In this document: positions 6,890-15,366 of the stretch, in pieces | How positions within the stretch are numbered: the first letter of the stretch is position 1 | Layout of the letters: the number at the start of each line of letters is the position of its first letter | Assembly (NCBI GenBank): GCA_947169835.1 | Contig: CAMVRH010000004.1 | Location: forward strand, 1-15,677 | DNA: 15,677 bases | From: an uncultured Lachnospira sp. | GTDB taxonomy: Bacteria; Bacillota; Clostridia; Lachnospirales; Lachnospiraceae | Reading direction: 5' to 3' | Made by a program: the position numbers and the translations under genes | Notes under the pieces: model-generated | Databases searched by the model: none | The model's input: only the letters and a program-made list of their open reading frames with translations | What the model was told of the DNA's origin: nothing

Positions 6890-6924
6890 GGCGCTTTTAC
6901 CTCCTTTTTGTTCACTTTGAAGTT

Positions 6925-8952: not shown

Positions 8953-9261
8953 ATGGAGAAATATACATTATATGTAGGCTTAAATGATAAAGACACAAAG
9001 ACGCAACTAATCAGCACACTAGAGGCATACAAAATTTGTAACAATATATTACTACATTATACAGACGGTGCCACCATATTTGAAGCCAACGGCTTATACA
9101 GACATGAGGACGGCACACTCGTACTAGAGAAAACTCTAAGAATAGAATTGTTATTCGCAACAAAAACTATCATTGACAAAATTGTAGCAGACTTAAAAGT
9201 AGCTTTTAACCAAGAGAGCATTGCAGTACAAAAACAAGTTATTGATAGTTACTTGTTATAA
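8953..9261 (+). CDS. Unknown 102-aa protein (DUF3574-like outline)
   Basis: The chain KYTLYVGLNDKDTKTQLIST, then TDGATIFEANGLYRHEDGTL and EKTLRIELLFATKTIIDKIV suggests a ferredoxin-like alpha/beta fold. The 'GLN.......DG.T.....G.Y....G....E' spacing recalls DUF3574-type proteins, but I hold this loosely. Similar short proteins occur in Gram-positive phages and conjugative elements. GGGGGTGAG is the ribosome binding site. The promoter of the next operon begins 3 bp after its stop. Confidence 0.65.
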   Translation: MEKYTLYVGLNDKDTKTQLISTLEAYKICNNILLHYTDGATIFEANGLYRHEDGTLVLEKTLRIELLFATKTIIDKIVADLKVAFNQESIAVQKQVIDSYLL

Positions 9262-9263
9262 AC

Positions 9264-9292
9264 TTGACTTTTAATTAAATTTATAGTATAAT
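9264..9292 (+). promoter_or_regulatory. Promoter of the AAA+/VWA/bS6 operon
   Basis: TTGACT (9264-9269), 17-nt spacer, TATAAT (9287-9292). The start site would be near 9299, within AAAAGTGAACA (9294-9304). The 99-bp gap to the next gene contains only this promoter and the structured leader. Confidence 0.9.
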
Positions 9293-9297
9293 TAAAA

Positions 9298-9360: not shown

Positions 9361-10245
9361 ATGGATTATGTAAAAATCACACCTAGTCAATTCAAGAAAG
9401 GACTAGAAAGCAAAAAGAATATGCTTGTATTCGGTAAATCAGGCATAGGCAAAACCGCAACAGTATATGAGTATGCAGAGGAGCATGGACTAAAAGTAGT
9501 AGATTATGACCTAGCAGGTAGACTACCAGAGGAAGTTGCAGGTATTCCAGCAGTACAAGATAGCTACTACAAAAGGATGCTAGACGAAGACTTACAAGAA
9601 ATGTTTGCAAAGAAAGGCGAAGGCTTTATACTACTATTTGACGAGGTAAACCAAGGCAGTCCAGACACACTAAATACCCTATACAGAATAACACACCCAA
9701 ACCCAGAAATGAGGAAATGGGCAGGACACGACATAAGCAAATGTCAAATAGTCGCTTGTGGCAATATGAGTGACGGCACAGACGGCACAGTATATTTAAC
9801 AGACTTGCCAACACCACTTGTAAACAGATTTTTTGTATTCCAACTTACAACAAGCAATAAAGAAACAACTGACTACTTAAAGAAGAAATACAAAAATATT
9901 CCACAGGTTGCCAAGTATATCAAGGTAATGCTTGACGCAGATATTAGCCCAAGAGACGTTGACTTAGCACTTGATATACTACAATATGATTATGACGGTA
10001 TGTTTCTTGAAAGCAAACTAGGCGCTGCCCTAACAGCTAAAATCTATGATATTCAAAAGGGCATTAAAAACCTAGACCCAGCAGAGCTAATCAAAAATGC
10101 TAGAAAAGTATATGCACAATTCAAAGAGGACGGAGAAGTAATGTTTGGAGCTGAAACGATAACAACCGAAGAAGACTTAAAACATAAGTTTGAAGAATTC
10201 CTAAGCGACGAGGAGATTAAAGGAGTAATGGAAGGGGGTGAGTAA
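9361..10245 (+). CDS. MoxR-type AAA+ ATPase
   Basis: 294 residues. Walker A is GKSGIGKT (25-32), Walker B LLFDE (91-95), sensor 1 VACGN (131-135), and a likely arginine finger R156 in PLVNRFF. The N...GSPDTLNTLYRI stretch after Walker B and the ACGNMSDGTDGT region are typical of the AAA_5/MoxR group, ATPases that remodel partner proteins and are usually encoded beside a VWA-domain partner. That is exactly the case here: the next gene starts 3 bp after this stop, its ribosome binding site (GGGGGTGAG) lying in the last codons, so the two are translationally coupled. The target protein is unknown. Confidence 0.9.
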   Translation: MDYVKITPSQFKKGLESKKNMLVFGKSGIGKTATVYEYAEEHGLKVVDYDLAGRLPEEVAGIPAVQDSYYKRMLDEDLQEMFAKKGEGFILLFDEVNQGSPDTLNTLYRITHPNPEMRKWAGHDISKCQIVACGNMSDGTDGTVYLTDLPTPLVNRFFVFQLTTSNKETTDYLKKKYKNIPQVAKYIKVMLDADISPRDVDLALDILQYDYDGMFLESKLGAALTAKIYDIQKGIKNLDPAELIKNARKVYAQFKEDGEVMFGAETITTEEDLKHKFEEFLSDEEIKGVMEGGE

Positions 10246-10247
10246 AT

Positions 10248-11693
10248 ATGGCTAATGTATTCTTAAATGGAGAAGACAGAGACATTGAAACAGCTATTAT
10301 GCTAGAGAAAGCCATAGTACACGACATAGGAAATGCAGTAGCATATACAGACGGTAACAGAATATTTGTAAATACTGACGACAACTTATACAACATACTA
10401 CCAGCATACGACCACAAAATGCTCAAATGGCTACTATGGCATGAAAGATACCACAAAGAATTAAGACACCATAACCGCTTCTTTAAATACTTAAGTGAGG
10501 TAGAAGAAGCGGACACCATAGACCAATTCAGAGTAACTAAAGAAGAAGTAAACATAATCATGGACATATTAGTACATGACTCTTTATCTAAATTATTTCC
10601 AGAATTGATCGAAACAGCAGTGAACAACCTTGCCCAGATGCGCAACAGAAATTCTTTAGGCTATACTTTCACAACATTCACACTAGAAGAAATGCTCGAG
10701 GAATATTCAAAACATAAACACAGAGAAGATAAAGACGAGGGCGAGGGTGCAGGAGACGGAGACGACAGCAAAGAAGACAAGAAAGACGGAGAGAAAACAA
10801 AAGGCAAGACAAGTAAGGGTAAAGACAGTAAAGACAAATCAAAAGACAGCGAGAAAGAAGGCGAAAAGAAAGAAGACCCAAGCAAGAAAGGACACGGAGA
10901 AGGGGGAAGTGGTGAAGCCCCAAGCAAAGGAAAAGACAGACCAGAAGACGGCGAGCCAGAAGAGCACGACGCTGAAGAGCCAACACCAGAAAGTGAACAC
11001 GAAAAAACCGACTGGTCAAAGCTTGAGAATATAGACAGTAAAGAATTCATAACAGAAGACGAGGCAGAAGAATACCTTGACCAAATCGCAAAGCTAAAAA
11101 GAATGAAAGCAAAATTAGGTAAGCTAACTGAAACATTAAATGGGCTAGTAACAAGTGTAAGACGTAGGACATATGCAAAGCCAAATCCTGTAAAGGTAGG
11201 CGGTGGCATAGTACTTAAAGGTAGCAGACCAGGTAAGGTAGCCTTATATCTAATATTTGATGCAAGTGGTAGTATGAGTTGTGAGATGAATACATTTAAA
11301 GATATTATCAGCAAAGCTATACCGCAAGCAATGACAACACCTACAACATGGTTTAGTGGCTGGTCACACAGAGATGAAGGCAGAAAAGTAATGGAAAAAT
11401 GTCAAGACCCAAAAGGCAGAAACAACGACTATTACAAAGGCACATTCCAAGACTTTATGAAAATACTTGCACGTGGTGGTTATGATGATGACGGTGATAG
11501 GACAATCGAATTATGTTACCTAGCTGAACAAGCAGGATACACACCAATTGGAGTAACAGATGGTGGTGGACAAATCAGCTGGAGTAAAGATAAATTAAAG
11601 AAATTACAAAGGACAATATTTGTAGGGTCAAATGACAGATGGTTAAAAAGAGCAAAAGAAATCAACCCAAGAATTCAAATATTATGTATATAG
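10248..11693 (+). CDS. VWA-domain protein with HExxH metallopeptidase-like N-terminus
   Basis: 481 residues in three parts. Residues 1-150 contain HERYHKELRHH (HERYH at 65-69) and later VNIIMDILVHD, matching the layout of the putative metallopeptidase domain paired with VWA-like domains (DUF2201 type). Residues about 151-258 are a Lys/Asp/Glu/Gly/Ser linker of low complexity, certainly disordered. Residues 265-310 are helical. Residues about 329-481 are a VWA-like domain with the MIDAS motif DASGS (338-342) and a later TDGGG (about 437-441). VWA domains bind partners through a metal ion. It is coupled to the MoxR ATPase, so the two probably form a chaperone or remodelling pair. Whether the HExxH is active is unknown. 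Confidence 0.85.
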   Translation: MANVFLNGEDRDIETAIMLEKAIVHDIGNAVAYTDGNRIFVNTDDNLYNILPAYDHKMLKWLLWHERYHKELRHHNRFFKYLSEVEEADTIDQFRVTKEEVNIIMDILVHDSLSKLFPELIETAVNNLAQMRNRNSLGYTFTTFTLEEMLEEYSKHKHREDKDEGEGAGDGDDSKEDKKDGEKTKGKTSKGKDSKDKSKDSEKEGEKKEDPSKKGHGEGGSGEAPSKGKDRPEDGEPEEHDAEEPTPESEHEKTDWSKLENIDSKEFITEDEAEEYLDQIAKLKRMKAKLGKLTETLNGLVTSVRRRTYAKPNPVKVGGGIVLKGSRPGKVALYLIFDASGSMSCEMNTFKDIISKAIPQAMTTPTTWFSGWSHRDEGRKVMEKCQDPKGRNNDYYKGTFQDFMKILARGGYDDDGDRTIELCYLAEQAGYTPIGVTDGGGQISWSKDKLKKLQRTIFVGSNDRWLKRAKEINPRIQILCI

Positions 11694-11708
11694 AAAGGAG
11701 TGAGGCAT

Positions 11709-12032
11709 ATGTATAGAATATTAAAGTCAGCTGGACTAGGTGCAAATGTAATAATAGAAAACACAGAAACTAAAGCTAATATAATTTTAGGCAGAATATC
11801 AAATGAAATCTACAACATGATTAAGAGTGCAGGCTATGACCCAGGTGGCCCATATAACATATGGAATATAGAAGTGAACAAGGATCTAGCCATAAGCATC
11901 GCCCGACTAACAATGAAAATGAGCAAACCAATAAGAGACCAAAGCAAGAAAGCAAAACAAGAAGCCATTAGAAAAACAAACAAAGAAATAGACGCAATGG
12001 ACGTAATGTTAGGACTAGCAAACTATAATTAG
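11709..12032 (+). CDS. Unknown 107-aa protein with shared C-terminal tail
   Basis: The start is ATG 11709, 9 nt after AAAGGAG; a GTG at 11700 overlaps the ribosome binding site. Residues 1-70 look like a small alpha/beta domain (NVIIENTETKANIILGRISN), 71-93 a basic helix (KMSKPIRDQSKKAKQEAIRK), and 94-106 the peptide IDAMDVMLGLANY. That peptide recurs at the C-terminus of the bS6-like protein encoded 480 bp downstream, and the DNA encoding it is identical over 29 nt. The basic helix suggests nucleic-acid binding, and the tail suggests that both proteins dock on one common partner. No family recognised. Confidence 0.75.
   Translation: MYRILKSAGLGANVIIENTETKANIILGRISNEIYNMIKSAGYDPGGPYNIWNIEVNKDLAISIARLTMKMSKPIRDQSKKAKQEAIRKTNKEIDAMDVMLGLANYN
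11986..12014 (+). repeat. 29-bp exact repeat (C-terminal tail), copy 1
   Basis: Identical to 12924-12952, in the same reading frame relative to both genes. It encodes IDAMDVMLG plus flanking bases. The sequences diverge on both sides, although the next residues stay similar (LANY versus FADY). Confidence 0.9.
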
Positions 12033-12049: not shown

Positions 12050-12466
12050 ATGAGTAACTATACAAGATTATCTATTAATAAGAATAGAGGCTGGAGAGGT
12101 CTAGCCAAAGCAAGAATTTATGATATAACAAGTAAGGACGAAATAGAATTAATATTCAGCTTTTCAAGATGTGTATGGGAAGACCTAATCATAAGACATA
12201 AAATAGTATTGCAAGATACTGACAACTACTATGTAGTATACTTTGAAGACGAACATAAGCAACTACCAAGTCCACTACAACAACGCAGTGTATTAATTAA
12301 AAGCTTTAATGAGACAATCAAGAGCATAACTAAAGTTAAGAAAACAGAGTGGACGTCAACTAAAGGCGACGACTGGTCAGCAATCAGGAACTTTATTCAA
12401 AACAATAACAATCACACAACAAGTGACTGGAACTATATAGGCATTAGAGTCATTCCAGAAATATAA
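12050..12466 (+). CDS. Unknown 138-aa protein
   Basis: MSNYTRLSINKNRGWRGLAK and onward: an alpha/beta protein with several aromatic residues (VWEDLIIRHK, DNYYVVYFEDE, SDWNYIGIRVIPE). No motif that I recognise, no membrane segment and no shared C-terminal tail. The ribosome binding site GAAAGGAGTGAGG overlaps the end of the preceding gene's stop region. It sits inside the AAA+/VWA/bS6 operon and so is likely expressed with it. Downstream, ATCCT (12472-12476) can pair with AGGAT (12487-12491) with AAAAGTGAAC in the loop. Confidence 0.7.
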   Translation: MSNYTRLSINKNRGWRGLAKARIYDITSKDEIELIFSFSRCVWEDLIIRHKIVLQDTDNYYVVYFEDEHKQLPSPLQQRSVLIKSFNETIKSITKVKKTEWTSTKGDDWSAIRNFIQNNNNHTTSDWNYIGIRVIPEI

Positions 12467-12511
12467 TATCCATCCTAAAAGTGAACAGGATAGAAAGGAG
12501 AAGTGAGAATT

Positions 12512-12979
12512 ATGAAGTACATGTATGAAACAATTATAATATTCACAGATACATTAAGTGAAAAGCAATACGACAGAGTGGTACATGAGTATAAAGGAAA
12601 GATCCTAAAAGGAGAAATAAAAGCTGAAACAATAAGTGTAGACAAACTAGGAAAAAAGAAACTGGCATATGAAATTAAAGGTAGCAAAGAAGGCTGGTAT
12701 GCTATATTCAAATATGCTACCGAACCAGATAAAATTCCTACTGTAGAAAGATTCATACGCACAGATGTAAATGTACTTAAATTCATAACAGTCAAGACAA
12801 GTGACGAAGACGACGAAGAATATAAAGAAGTAGATACAGGCGAAGAATTATACAGCGACTCACCAACAGTAGAAGTAGACAAAAGTGAACAAGATGATTC
12901 TGATGCAGGCAATCCAAATTCTAAAATAGACGCAATGGACGTAATGTTAGGATTTGCAGATTATGTAAAAGTAAGTTAA
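12512..12979 (+). CDS. Ribosomal protein bS6 homologue with SSB-like acidic tail
   Basis: 155 residues; residues 1-96 match cellular bS6 end to end: YETIIIFTDTLSEKQ (strand 1), the signature GKKKLAYEIKGSKEGWYAIF (47-66), and TVERFIRTDVNVLKFITVK (77-95). bS6 pairs with bS18 on the 30S platform and binds 16S rRNA. After the fold comes a very acidic linker (97-137, 14 Asp/Glu in the first 25 residues), then IDAMDVMLGFADY (139-151), shared with the 107-aa protein two genes upstream. Cellular bS6 is normally 90-140 aa and lacks this peptide. ATG 12512 has AAAGGAG 11 nt upstream; ATG 12521 is an alternative. It may replace host bS6 in ribosomes, or act as an RNA/ssDNA-binding protein with an SSB-style tail. 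Confidence 0.85.
   Translation: MKYMYETIIIFTDTLSEKQYDRVVHEYKGKILKGEIKAETISVDKLGKKKLAYEIKGSKEGWYAIFKYATEPDKIPTVERFIRTDVNVLKFITVKTSDEDDEEYKEVDTGEELYSDSPTVEVDKSEQDDSDAGNPNSKIDAMDVMLGFADYVKVS
12924..12952 (+). repeat. 29-bp exact repeat (C-terminal tail), copy 2
   Basis: Second copy of 11986-12014, at the end of the bS6-like gene. See the shared-tail finding. Confidence 0.9.
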
Positions 12980-12984
12980 TGTGA

Positions 12985-13013
12985 TTGACATTGTTTATAA
13001 ATAATGATATAAT
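12985..13013 (+). promoter_or_regulatory. Consensus promoter
   Basis: Perfect TTGACA (12985-12990), 17-nt spacer, perfect TATAAT (13008-13013). It begins 5 bp after the bS6-like stop codon and drives the 54-aa gene, the first HNH gene and the RuvB-like gene. It is the closest to consensus of the promoters seen here. Confidence 0.95.
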
Positions 13014-13732: not shown

Positions 13733-14620
13733 ATGATGATAACACAAAAAGAATTATTTAAAAACATTGTTGGGCAGGAGCAGGCAAAAAATGCCATATA
13801 TGATTGGTATTGCTCAGAAAAACAACCATTGTTGATTTACGGAAATAGTGGATATGGGAAAACAATGTTTAGTGAACAGTTAGGAGCCAAGACAATTGAC
13901 ACAACACAAATGAGAGGTGACAGATTAAACACAATACTTAAACCAATTAAAGAAGCGGAAGATGGTGACATATTATTCTTTGATGAAATTCACAGTCTAC
14001 CAGGAAAAATACTTGAAGGTCTTTACAAGATAATTGATAAAGGGACATTCTACGATACAGAGTTATGCATGGATTTACCTATACCAAATGTAAGATTTGT
14101 ATTCGCTACGAATATATTGAACCCTTTACCAGAAGCATTTAAAAACAGATGTAGATTTGTAGAGTTACAAGATTATACAGAGGAGGAACTAGCTGAAATA
14201 GTACAGAAAGCAAACCCAGGACTAAACAAAGAAAGCATACCAAGTATTATAAGAGCTAGCAAAGGTGTACCAAGGACAGCATTAAGTTTAGCGAAATCAA
14301 TGAAAGCAGGTATGGTAACTGAAGGTTATAAGAATCTAACAGTGAACAGAGTAAACGATTTATTAGACTCAAGATTCAATATCGATGGTGACACTGGCTT
14401 ATCAGCCAAGGAATTCAAGATAGTGCAAAAGGTAATTGAAAGAGGTAGTATCTCAACAAGTGCAGTAGCAAACATTATCGGTTGCAATATCAAAGACGCA
14501 AAGCTATTATATATTGAGCCATTAAGAGCAAGTGAGTGGCTAGCAGTAAGCACACATGGTGTTATACCGGGAAGGCGTGCTCACGAAAACTATAGACTAT
14601 TTACAAGAAAAGGAGCATAA
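13733..14620 (+). CDS. RuvB-like AAA+ ATPase
   Basis: 295 residues, slightly shorter than cellular RuvB. Walker A is GNSGYGKT (37-44), Walker B LFFDEIH (81-87), sensor 1 ATN (125-127), arginine finger in FKNR (136-139) and sensor 2 GVPRTA (178-183). The last ~70 residues look like the winged helix of RuvB (IEPLRASEWLAVSTHG and RRAHENYRLF). Cellular RuvB drives Holliday-junction branch migration with RuvA. No RuvA or RuvC gene is in the window, so it may use host RuvA, or act as a loader on phage DNA. ATG 13733 follows AAGGAG by 7 nt; ATG 13736 is also possible. A terminator follows at 14659. Confidence 0.8.
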   Translation: MMITQKELFKNIVGQEQAKNAIYDWYCSEKQPLLIYGNSGYGKTMFSEQLGAKTIDTTQMRGDRLNTILKPIKEAEDGDILFFDEIHSLPGKILEGLYKIIDKGTFYDTELCMDLPIPNVRFVFATNILNPLPEAFKNRCRFVELQDYTEEELAEIVQKANPGLNKESIPSIIRASKGVPRTALSLAKSMKAGMVTEGYKNLTVNRVNDLLDSRFNIDGDTGLSAKEFKIVQKVIERGSISTSAVANIIGCNIKDAKLLYIEPLRASEWLAVSTHGVIPGRRAHENYRLFTRKGA

Positions 14621-14742: not shown

Positions 14743-14787
14743 GTGTGTGTTTAATTATTTTTTACCACACTTGTTCACTTTTAGATG
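14743..14787. repeat. 45-bp direct repeat flanking the second HNH gene, left copy
   Basis: Runs from GTGTGTGTTT to CTTGTTCACTTTTAGATG and matches 15322-15366 at about 40 of 45 positions with no gap. It contains the TGTTCAC motif and ends next to the ribosome binding site of the HNH gene. Confidence 0.8.
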
Positions 14788-15321: not shown

Positions 15322-15366
15322 GTGTGTGTTTATTAAATTTTTACCACGCTTGTTCACTTTTAAATG
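15322..15366. repeat. 45-bp direct repeat flanking the second HNH gene, right copy
   Basis: Right-hand copy of 14743-14787. A partial third copy of its first half (CTGTGTGTGTATTCATTTTA) lies just before it at 15297-15316. Confidence 0.8.

Follow-up and report, generated by a model that had tools for sequence, protein, structure and literature searches.

A phage bS6-type protein and an unlike neighbour share a C-terminal tail in an AAA-VWA operon

Ribosomal proteins encoded by phages are usually presumed to replace their counterparts in the host ribosome. In E. coli, RimK adds glutamate residues to the C-terminus of bS6. In bacterial SSB, a folded nucleic-acid-binding domain is followed by an acidic linker and, at the C-terminal end, by a conserved peptide through which partners are recruited; SSB carries a DDDIPF-like acidic-Phe tip at the very C-terminus.

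The viral ribosomal proteins of uncultivated phages include bS6, with an enrichment in the phages of animal-associated bacteria, as stated in the accessible part of Mizuno et al. (2019, PMC6375957). A bS6 encoded by a phage is thus already known per se; the earlier note on this DNA had called it uncommon, and its presence in phages stands whereas the emphasis on rarity has to be softened. According to the available extracts of two other papers, the MIDAS of the NorQ/NorD pair acts on the side of the target protein rather than of the ATPase, MIDAS sites accepting an acidic residue that the target supplies (PMC9976466), and Mdn1 uses a MIDAS domain to extract assembly factors from ribosomal precursors (PMC8837202).

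The bS6 gene and its operon

The window, i.e., the whole stretch of 15,677 nucleotides analysed here, presents the gene order AAA (9361), VWA (10248), tailORF (11709), NKNRGW (12050) and bS6 (12512), with bS6 last (tailORF and NKNRGW are working names). The following features are referred to in the text, AGTGAACA being a DNA word described further below.

9264..9292, + strand: sigma-70-like promoter (11 of 12) upstream of the AAA gene, consensus match only; AGTGAACA follows at 9297
9361..10245, + strand: AAA ATPase, MoxR-like by interpretation (PF07728 AAA_5, 24.7 bits, cut-off 22)
10248..11693, + strand: VWA protein, with a MIDAS-type DASGS (11259-11273) and an N-terminal HExxH (10440-10454)
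11709..12032, + strand: tailORF, 107 aa, a tail-bearing domain without known relatives; alternative GTG start at 11700
11985..12029, + strand: tail EIDAMDVMLGLANYN of tailORF (pattern search, base comparison)
12050..12466, + strand: NKNRGW, conserved protein of unknown function between tailORF and bS6, present in related operons
12480..12487, + strand: AGTGAACA directly 5' of the bS6 ribosome-binding site (word search)
12512..12979, + strand: bS6-type protein, 155 aa (ORF translation; Pfam, NCBIfam and PDB matches)
12524..12796, + strand: S6 domain, residues 5-95 (Pfam match; genome match C4:12524-12796)
12797..12922, + strand: acidic linker (sequence; mean charge after residue 96 in homologues)
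12884..12891, + strand: AGTGAACA in the linker, read as SEQ (word search)
12923..12976, + strand: C-terminal tail KIDAMDVMLGFADYVKVS with core D140-G147, proposed docking peptide (pattern search, homologue comparison)
12985..13013, + strand: promoter-like site, 12 of 12 (TTGACA, 17 nt, TATAAT, TG before), consensus match only
13733..14620, + strand: AAA protein of RuvB-like or clamp-loader-like type, in the transcription unit proposed to come next (profile matches)

The protein encoded by the last gene matches the Pfam family Ribosomal_S6 (PF01250) over residues 5-95 with 67.9 bits (cut-off 27, E 9.2e-19) and the NCBIfam equivalog TIGR00166 over residues 5-96 with 54.3 bits (cut-off 42.9), and its top PDB match is a bS6 chain (E 4.1e-10); it is on these profile matches that its fold rests. 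With both profiles above their cut-offs, the proposal of the earlier note that a phage encodes bS6 here is upheld. The PHROG families gave no match to it up to E 0.1. Its sequence shows a bS6 homologue extended by some 40 acidic residues and then by a conserved end, an architecture that recurs in its relatives: in 122 tailed homologues, the part beyond residue 96 has a net charge of -10 on average, and the acidic linker and conserved end described in the earlier note are thus borne out.

We compared the domain with 30 cellular-type rows, 24 of them unnamed untailed proteins assumed to be cellular. In 26 of the 34 columns that reach 80% conservation or more among these rows, the window protein has the commonest residue, the eight departures being at residues 2, 38, 57, 68, 77, 78, 84 and 86, and in 25 of the same columns the commonest residue is held by most of 24 phage bS6 rows. 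This retention, together with the detection of viral bS21 and bL12 in ribosomes (PMC6375957, available part), would fit a replacement ribosomal protein that enters the host 30S and biases translation, the tail merely aiding competition. Replacement nevertheless leaves unexplained why tailORF and other small proteins bear the same tail and why the tail type agrees with the trees of AAA and VWA (see below), and we consider it distinctly unlikely.

Neither ssb nor rpsR lies beside the window bS6 gene, whose neighbours are phage-like or unknown genes encoding, e.g., a portal-like protein (27% identity with an annotated portal, over 78%) and two AAA proteins, in agreement with the non-cellular context claimed previously. 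Read from the sequence, AGAAAGGAG precedes the ATG of bS6 and a ribosome-binding site precedes tailORF. The 12-of-12 promoter-like site located directly 3' of the bS6 stop suggests that bS6 is the end of the AAA-VWA unit. The AAA protein matches phrog_1297 (E 1.3e-21) and, below the cut-off of the Pfam profile search, bpMoxR (E 0.048). The VWA protein matches none of the VWA Pfam profiles and no Thr of the MIDAS signature DxSxS-T-D was identified in it; its DASGS, TDG and HExxH motifs are invariant in 9/9 rows of alignment A3, and its model resembles 1shu (prob 1.00) and the NorQD chain 9qhe_G (prob 0.92) in a structure search. NKNRGW matches nothing in Pfam up to E 1. Elsewhere in the region, a DUF3574 protein (33.4 bits, cut-off 25) is encoded upstream of the AAA gene, at 8953-9261. 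An Api92-like protein (DUF1281_C, L042:12435-12983) comes after NKNRGW in one relative and has look-alikes in several others; the window has no space for such a gene in the NKNRGW-bS6 interval.

A bS6-profile scan of viral contigs recovered 11 contigs, two of which (L010 and L014) are near-copies. The VWA gene is present in 7/7 contigs with a tailed bS6 versus 0/4 with an untailed bS6, the latter having been searched over whole records that are possibly fragments. The untailed bS6 proteins occur in four other phage contigs of 40-115 kb (L020, L021, L022 and L023) without a VWA match. The reciprocal VWA-profile scan recovered 21 viral and 4 genome contigs; 23 of them contain a complete tailORF, and in the remaining two (L012 and L037) the contig ends. 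The longest related records measure about 77 kb, and no bS6 match was obtained in the 77-kb records G060 and G061, in which VWA is present; by this distribution, bS6 is evidently an accessory gene, dispensable in the lineage. The VWA protein has no match in 50,697 INPHARED records, so the phage lineage seems to be uncultured. One MAG titled Brachyspira has two contigs (L039 and L042) carrying two different members of the lineage, and the other genome contigs, L040 and L041, are titled Pygmaiobacter and Clostridia; the Brachyspira label may reflect binning.

The C-terminal tail and the DNA word in the linker

The motif IDAMDVMLG that ends the window bS6 also ends tailORF, encoded two genes upstream. 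At the DNA level, the two tail regions of the window are identical at 29 of 30 bases, positions 11988-12008 and 12926-12946 being exactly the same, and a degenerate 21-base core pattern (at most 2 mismatches) occurs twice in the window versus in 0/200 shuffles. The identity of 29/30 bases could be taken to mean that the likeness of the tails arose by recombination between the 3' ends of bS6 and tailORF. Against this, in the other 9 phages (the window's 7/7 was left out of the count), the tail residues shared by bS6 and tailORF use the same codon in 18/50 cases versus a fraction of 0.38 between phages. Same-codon use is therefore no higher within than between phages, indicating that the peptide is conserved and not the DNA; moreover, the motif persists across deep divergence. 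Recombination thus appears highly improbable as the source of the likeness.

The tail can be described by the core pattern D-x-h-[DN]-h-h-[LFY]-[GN], where h is a hydrophobic residue. Among the best-ranked homologues, this pattern fits 118/120 tailORFs and 115/122 tailed bS6 proteins, fractions that are upper estimates, the homologues having been gathered with tail-containing queries. The seven bS6 misses comprise four near variants (P0220, P0222, P0250 and P0259) and three proteins that seemingly extend past the motif (P0219, P0233 and P0253), while one of the two tailORF misses is a near variant (P0149) and the other has a different end (P0076). The first Asp of the core is replaced by Asn in 8/115 bS6 cores; every commonest core listed among the homologues retains at least one Asp. 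Alignment A5 comprises 22 tailORFs (the window protein and 21 different tailORF proteins from related loci), and the motif is terminal in each of them, with Asn at the first Asp in one and at the second in two. In bS6, 0-24 residues follow the core, so that the motif is mostly set back from the C-terminus, by anything from a few to many residues.

Within a single related phage, as many as three unlike proteins bear the tail motif. Further small tailed proteins, encoded near the bS6 position (L039:13410-13739, L042:13000-13320 and L018:10466-10783; tail example, SEQPDAEDVLLGLSDY), are beta-rich by eye and have no Pfam match; those of L039 and L042 are 49% identical, and no bS6 was found beside them. 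The tailORF protein alone is predicted to adopt a beta-beta-beta-alpha-beta-alpha arrangement, with pLDDT of 84-91 for residues 1-70 and about 60 for the tail, and a structure search with this model gave no convincing match. We also folded a VWA-tailORF fusion read through the intergenic stop, without the AAA hexamer and metal and with 5/20 alignment rows covering tailORF. In this model, of poor quality overall (mean pLDDT 58, pTM 0.36), the VWA domain reaches a pLDDT near 85, the tailORF domain near 75 and the tail, as a short helix, less than 50; no docking of the tail on VWA alone was predicted in this fold.

The linker of 113/122 tailed bS6 proteins contains the residues SEQ which, where the DNA is at hand, are the translation of the DNA word AGTGAACA. 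The window has 12 copies of this word versus 0.69 expected, i.e., a 17-fold over-representation, and 0/200 shuffles reach 12; they include sites at 9297, 12480 and 12884 on the + strand and at 6909, 14772 and 15351 on the - strand. The word, often in the form AAGTGAACAR, is the top 8-mer in 7/11 sequences including the window (order-3 Markov expectation), and it has 100 copies versus at most 21 for any single-base variant in the window and four long records. The four phage loci with untailed bS6 have 1, 0, 0 and 0 copies. In 10/10 bS6 genes, AGTGAACA lies after the S6 domain, in three reading phases, giving SEQ in eight genes, EVN in one and running across the stop in one. Among 129 sites in eight sequences, 75 are sense, 16 antisense and 38 intergenic, one of the three sense phases being blocked by a stop codon. 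All four copies in the MAG of the longer TAAAAGTGAACA are on the window contig. Intergenic sequences of the AAAAGTGAACAAGCGTGGGGTAATATAAA form are located near HNH-like genes (by eye) at 14772-14783 and 15351-15362 (- strand), with similar ones in relatives. The word is possibly a stoperator-like site, comparable to the dispersed stoperators of mycobacteriophages (PMC9283540, available part), or an RNA element.

Tail types, gene trees and a possible partner

From the tail letters alone, we assigned three tail types: L (DALDVLLG-like), F (DxFDLIYG-like) and I (DLLDIIYG-like). The types of bS6 and tailORF match in 10/10 compared phages having both genes (near-copies dropped), and the pairing of the two tails by identity is significant by permutation (p 0.0036). 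In trees built without L013, of 17-21 rows each, the F-type group forms one supported clade for VWA (99/98) and for AAA (96/96); the L type is not one clade on the VWA tree (2 changes). By AU tests, the F grouping is rejected for the RuvB-like AAA protein (p 0.0004), NKNRGW (p 0.002) and the tailORF domain (p 0.025), and it is not rejected on the portal tree (p 0.145). The bS6-domain tree also rejects it (p 0.0044 with 10 rows; p 0.0035 without the long branch L028), whereas AAA and VWA of those same phages back it at 99-100. Sister domains can differ in their ends: the bS6 domains P0003 and P0244 (99/99) bear different tails, and the bS6 domain of the window groups with F-type relatives, yet its tail is of the L type, as in its own tailORF. 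A single change between L and F suffices on the AAA and VWA trees, versus three for bS6, where supported branches require two; the independent switches are thus few, and the 10 compared phages are related.

Linkage alone does not explain this pattern, since NKNRGW lies between both tailed genes in the window and yet rejects the grouping. The trees are most simply read as selection that matches the tail to some partner inherited together with AAA and VWA. The same pattern would be expected had phages exchanged their bS6 domains while the tail downstream stayed fixed, and such an exchange would still imply that the tail is part of the machinery of the lineage. We propose for the tail the role of a docking peptide that can be swapped, whose partner evolves with the AAA-VWA pair and is most likely that pair itself. 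The AAA and VWA proteins are indistinguishable as partners in these data, and the partner may also be a host protein or another phage protein that shares their history.

Tailed bS6 domains cluster in 26/27 rows with support 93/85, in a tree of 95 columns with many weak forks; the exception, L028, stands apart on a long branch, and a single tailed clade is not rejected (p 0.345). Two untailed 112-residue proteins stand beside the tailed group in this tree. The phylogeny against host bS6 suggested in the earlier note did not place the tailed domains beside the bS6 of genomes of the window MAG's family.

The same note had likened the layout to that of SSB and suggested that the bS6 fold was recruited as an RNA/ssDNA-binding hub; in the version considered here, the tail would bring in replication proteins as that of SSB does. 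The acidic linker with its conserved end, the RuvB-like or clamp-loader-like AAA protein encoded downstream and, in some phages, the beta-rich small tailed proteins would be in line with such a hub. The likeness to SSB did not hold up, however: there is no DDDIPF-like tip, the motif is mostly internal and common to an unlike neighbour, its type tracks AAA/VWA, and no Pfam match to the SSB family was found for the window bS6 (P0001) up to E 1. As the RuvB-like AAA tree also rejects the tail grouping and the extra tailed proteins match no Pfam family, we regard a hub as very unlikely.

We tentatively favour, at slightly less than an even chance, a model in which the tail docks on AAA-VWA and the S6 domain holds this remodeller at an S6 target. 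The phage bS6 domain is fused, through a flexible acidic linker, to a short C-terminal peptide; this peptide would dock on the phage AAA-VWA complex, perhaps as an acidic ligand of the VWA MIDAS. The S6 domain would then aim the ATP-driven remodeller at a target such as the 30S platform (bS18, 16S rRNA) or a structured mRNA, the most likely outcome being that ribosomes or RNA-protein complexes are remodelled to the advantage of the phage. From the behaviour of MIDAS sites in relatives and the Asp present in the common cores, we infer that the tail is the plug by which clients or adaptors connect to AAA-VWA.

The main rival of this docking model, in our opinion a rather unlikely one, is that bS6 and tailORF are substrates: the tail would be a recognition tag, and AAA-VWA, with its HExxH, would unfold or process both proteins, e.g., during virion assembly. 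The invariance of HExxH speaks for it, as does the proposal that the MoxR-vWA-metallopeptidase pair of jumbo phages acts in virion assembly with peptidolytic processing (PMC7824862, available part). However, the carriers of the tail are conserved folded domains, one of them of an RNA-binding type, their genes lie outside the structural-looking block (by eye) and a Pfam match to DUF2201_N is under its cut-off. A more specific version of docking, which we consider unlikely, is a phage counterpart of midasin, in which an AAA-MIDAS machine tethered to the small subunit via the swappable bS6 tail as MIDAS ligand would remodel host ribosomes during infection; tailORF and the other small proteins would then be alternative adaptors with the same plug, and ribosome-bound complexes would be remodelled as well.

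Under the docking model, the shared tail provides a concrete candidate partner for a phage ribosomal protein, and a search for the tail offers a route to the clients of phage AAA-VWA machines. If docking is true, the phage may be attaching a molecular machine of its own to the ribosome of the bacterium or to some other RNA target. Across recombining phages, a ribosomal protein here shares a peptide with an unlike neighbour, a peptide that fits the history of AAA-VWA.

Comparison with described systems

The viral ribosomal proteins of Mizuno et al. (2019, PMC6375957) are alike in that bS6 is found in uncultivated phages; the accessible part of that paper mentions neither a shared C-terminal peptide nor an AAA-VWA operon, both of which are present in the window. 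With RimK-glutamylated bS6, the likeness is in composition alone, the acidic stretch of the window protein being gene-encoded. The layout is also that of bacterial SSB, but the peptide of the window protein is common to unlike proteins and comes without the SSB profile or tip.

Mdn1/Rea1 midasin, an AAA and MIDAS machine that acts on ribosome precursors via ligand domains of assembly factors (PMC8837202, available part), provides an analogy only: there is no common ligand domain and the ribosomal subunit would differ. The MoxR-vWA-metallopeptidase pair of group 2.2 jumbo phages has, by description only, the same domain combination (PMC7824862, available part), whereas the records studied here do not exceed about 77 kb and the pair lies beside tailORF and sometimes bS6. 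Finally, the MoxR pairs NorQ/NorD, CbbQ/CbbO and RavA/ViaA (PMC9976466, available part) likewise associate an AAA_5-type ATPase with an adjoining VWA-fold DxSxS protein, the fold being a predicted one in the window, which adds an N-terminal HExxH and candidate clients with a common C-terminal peptide.
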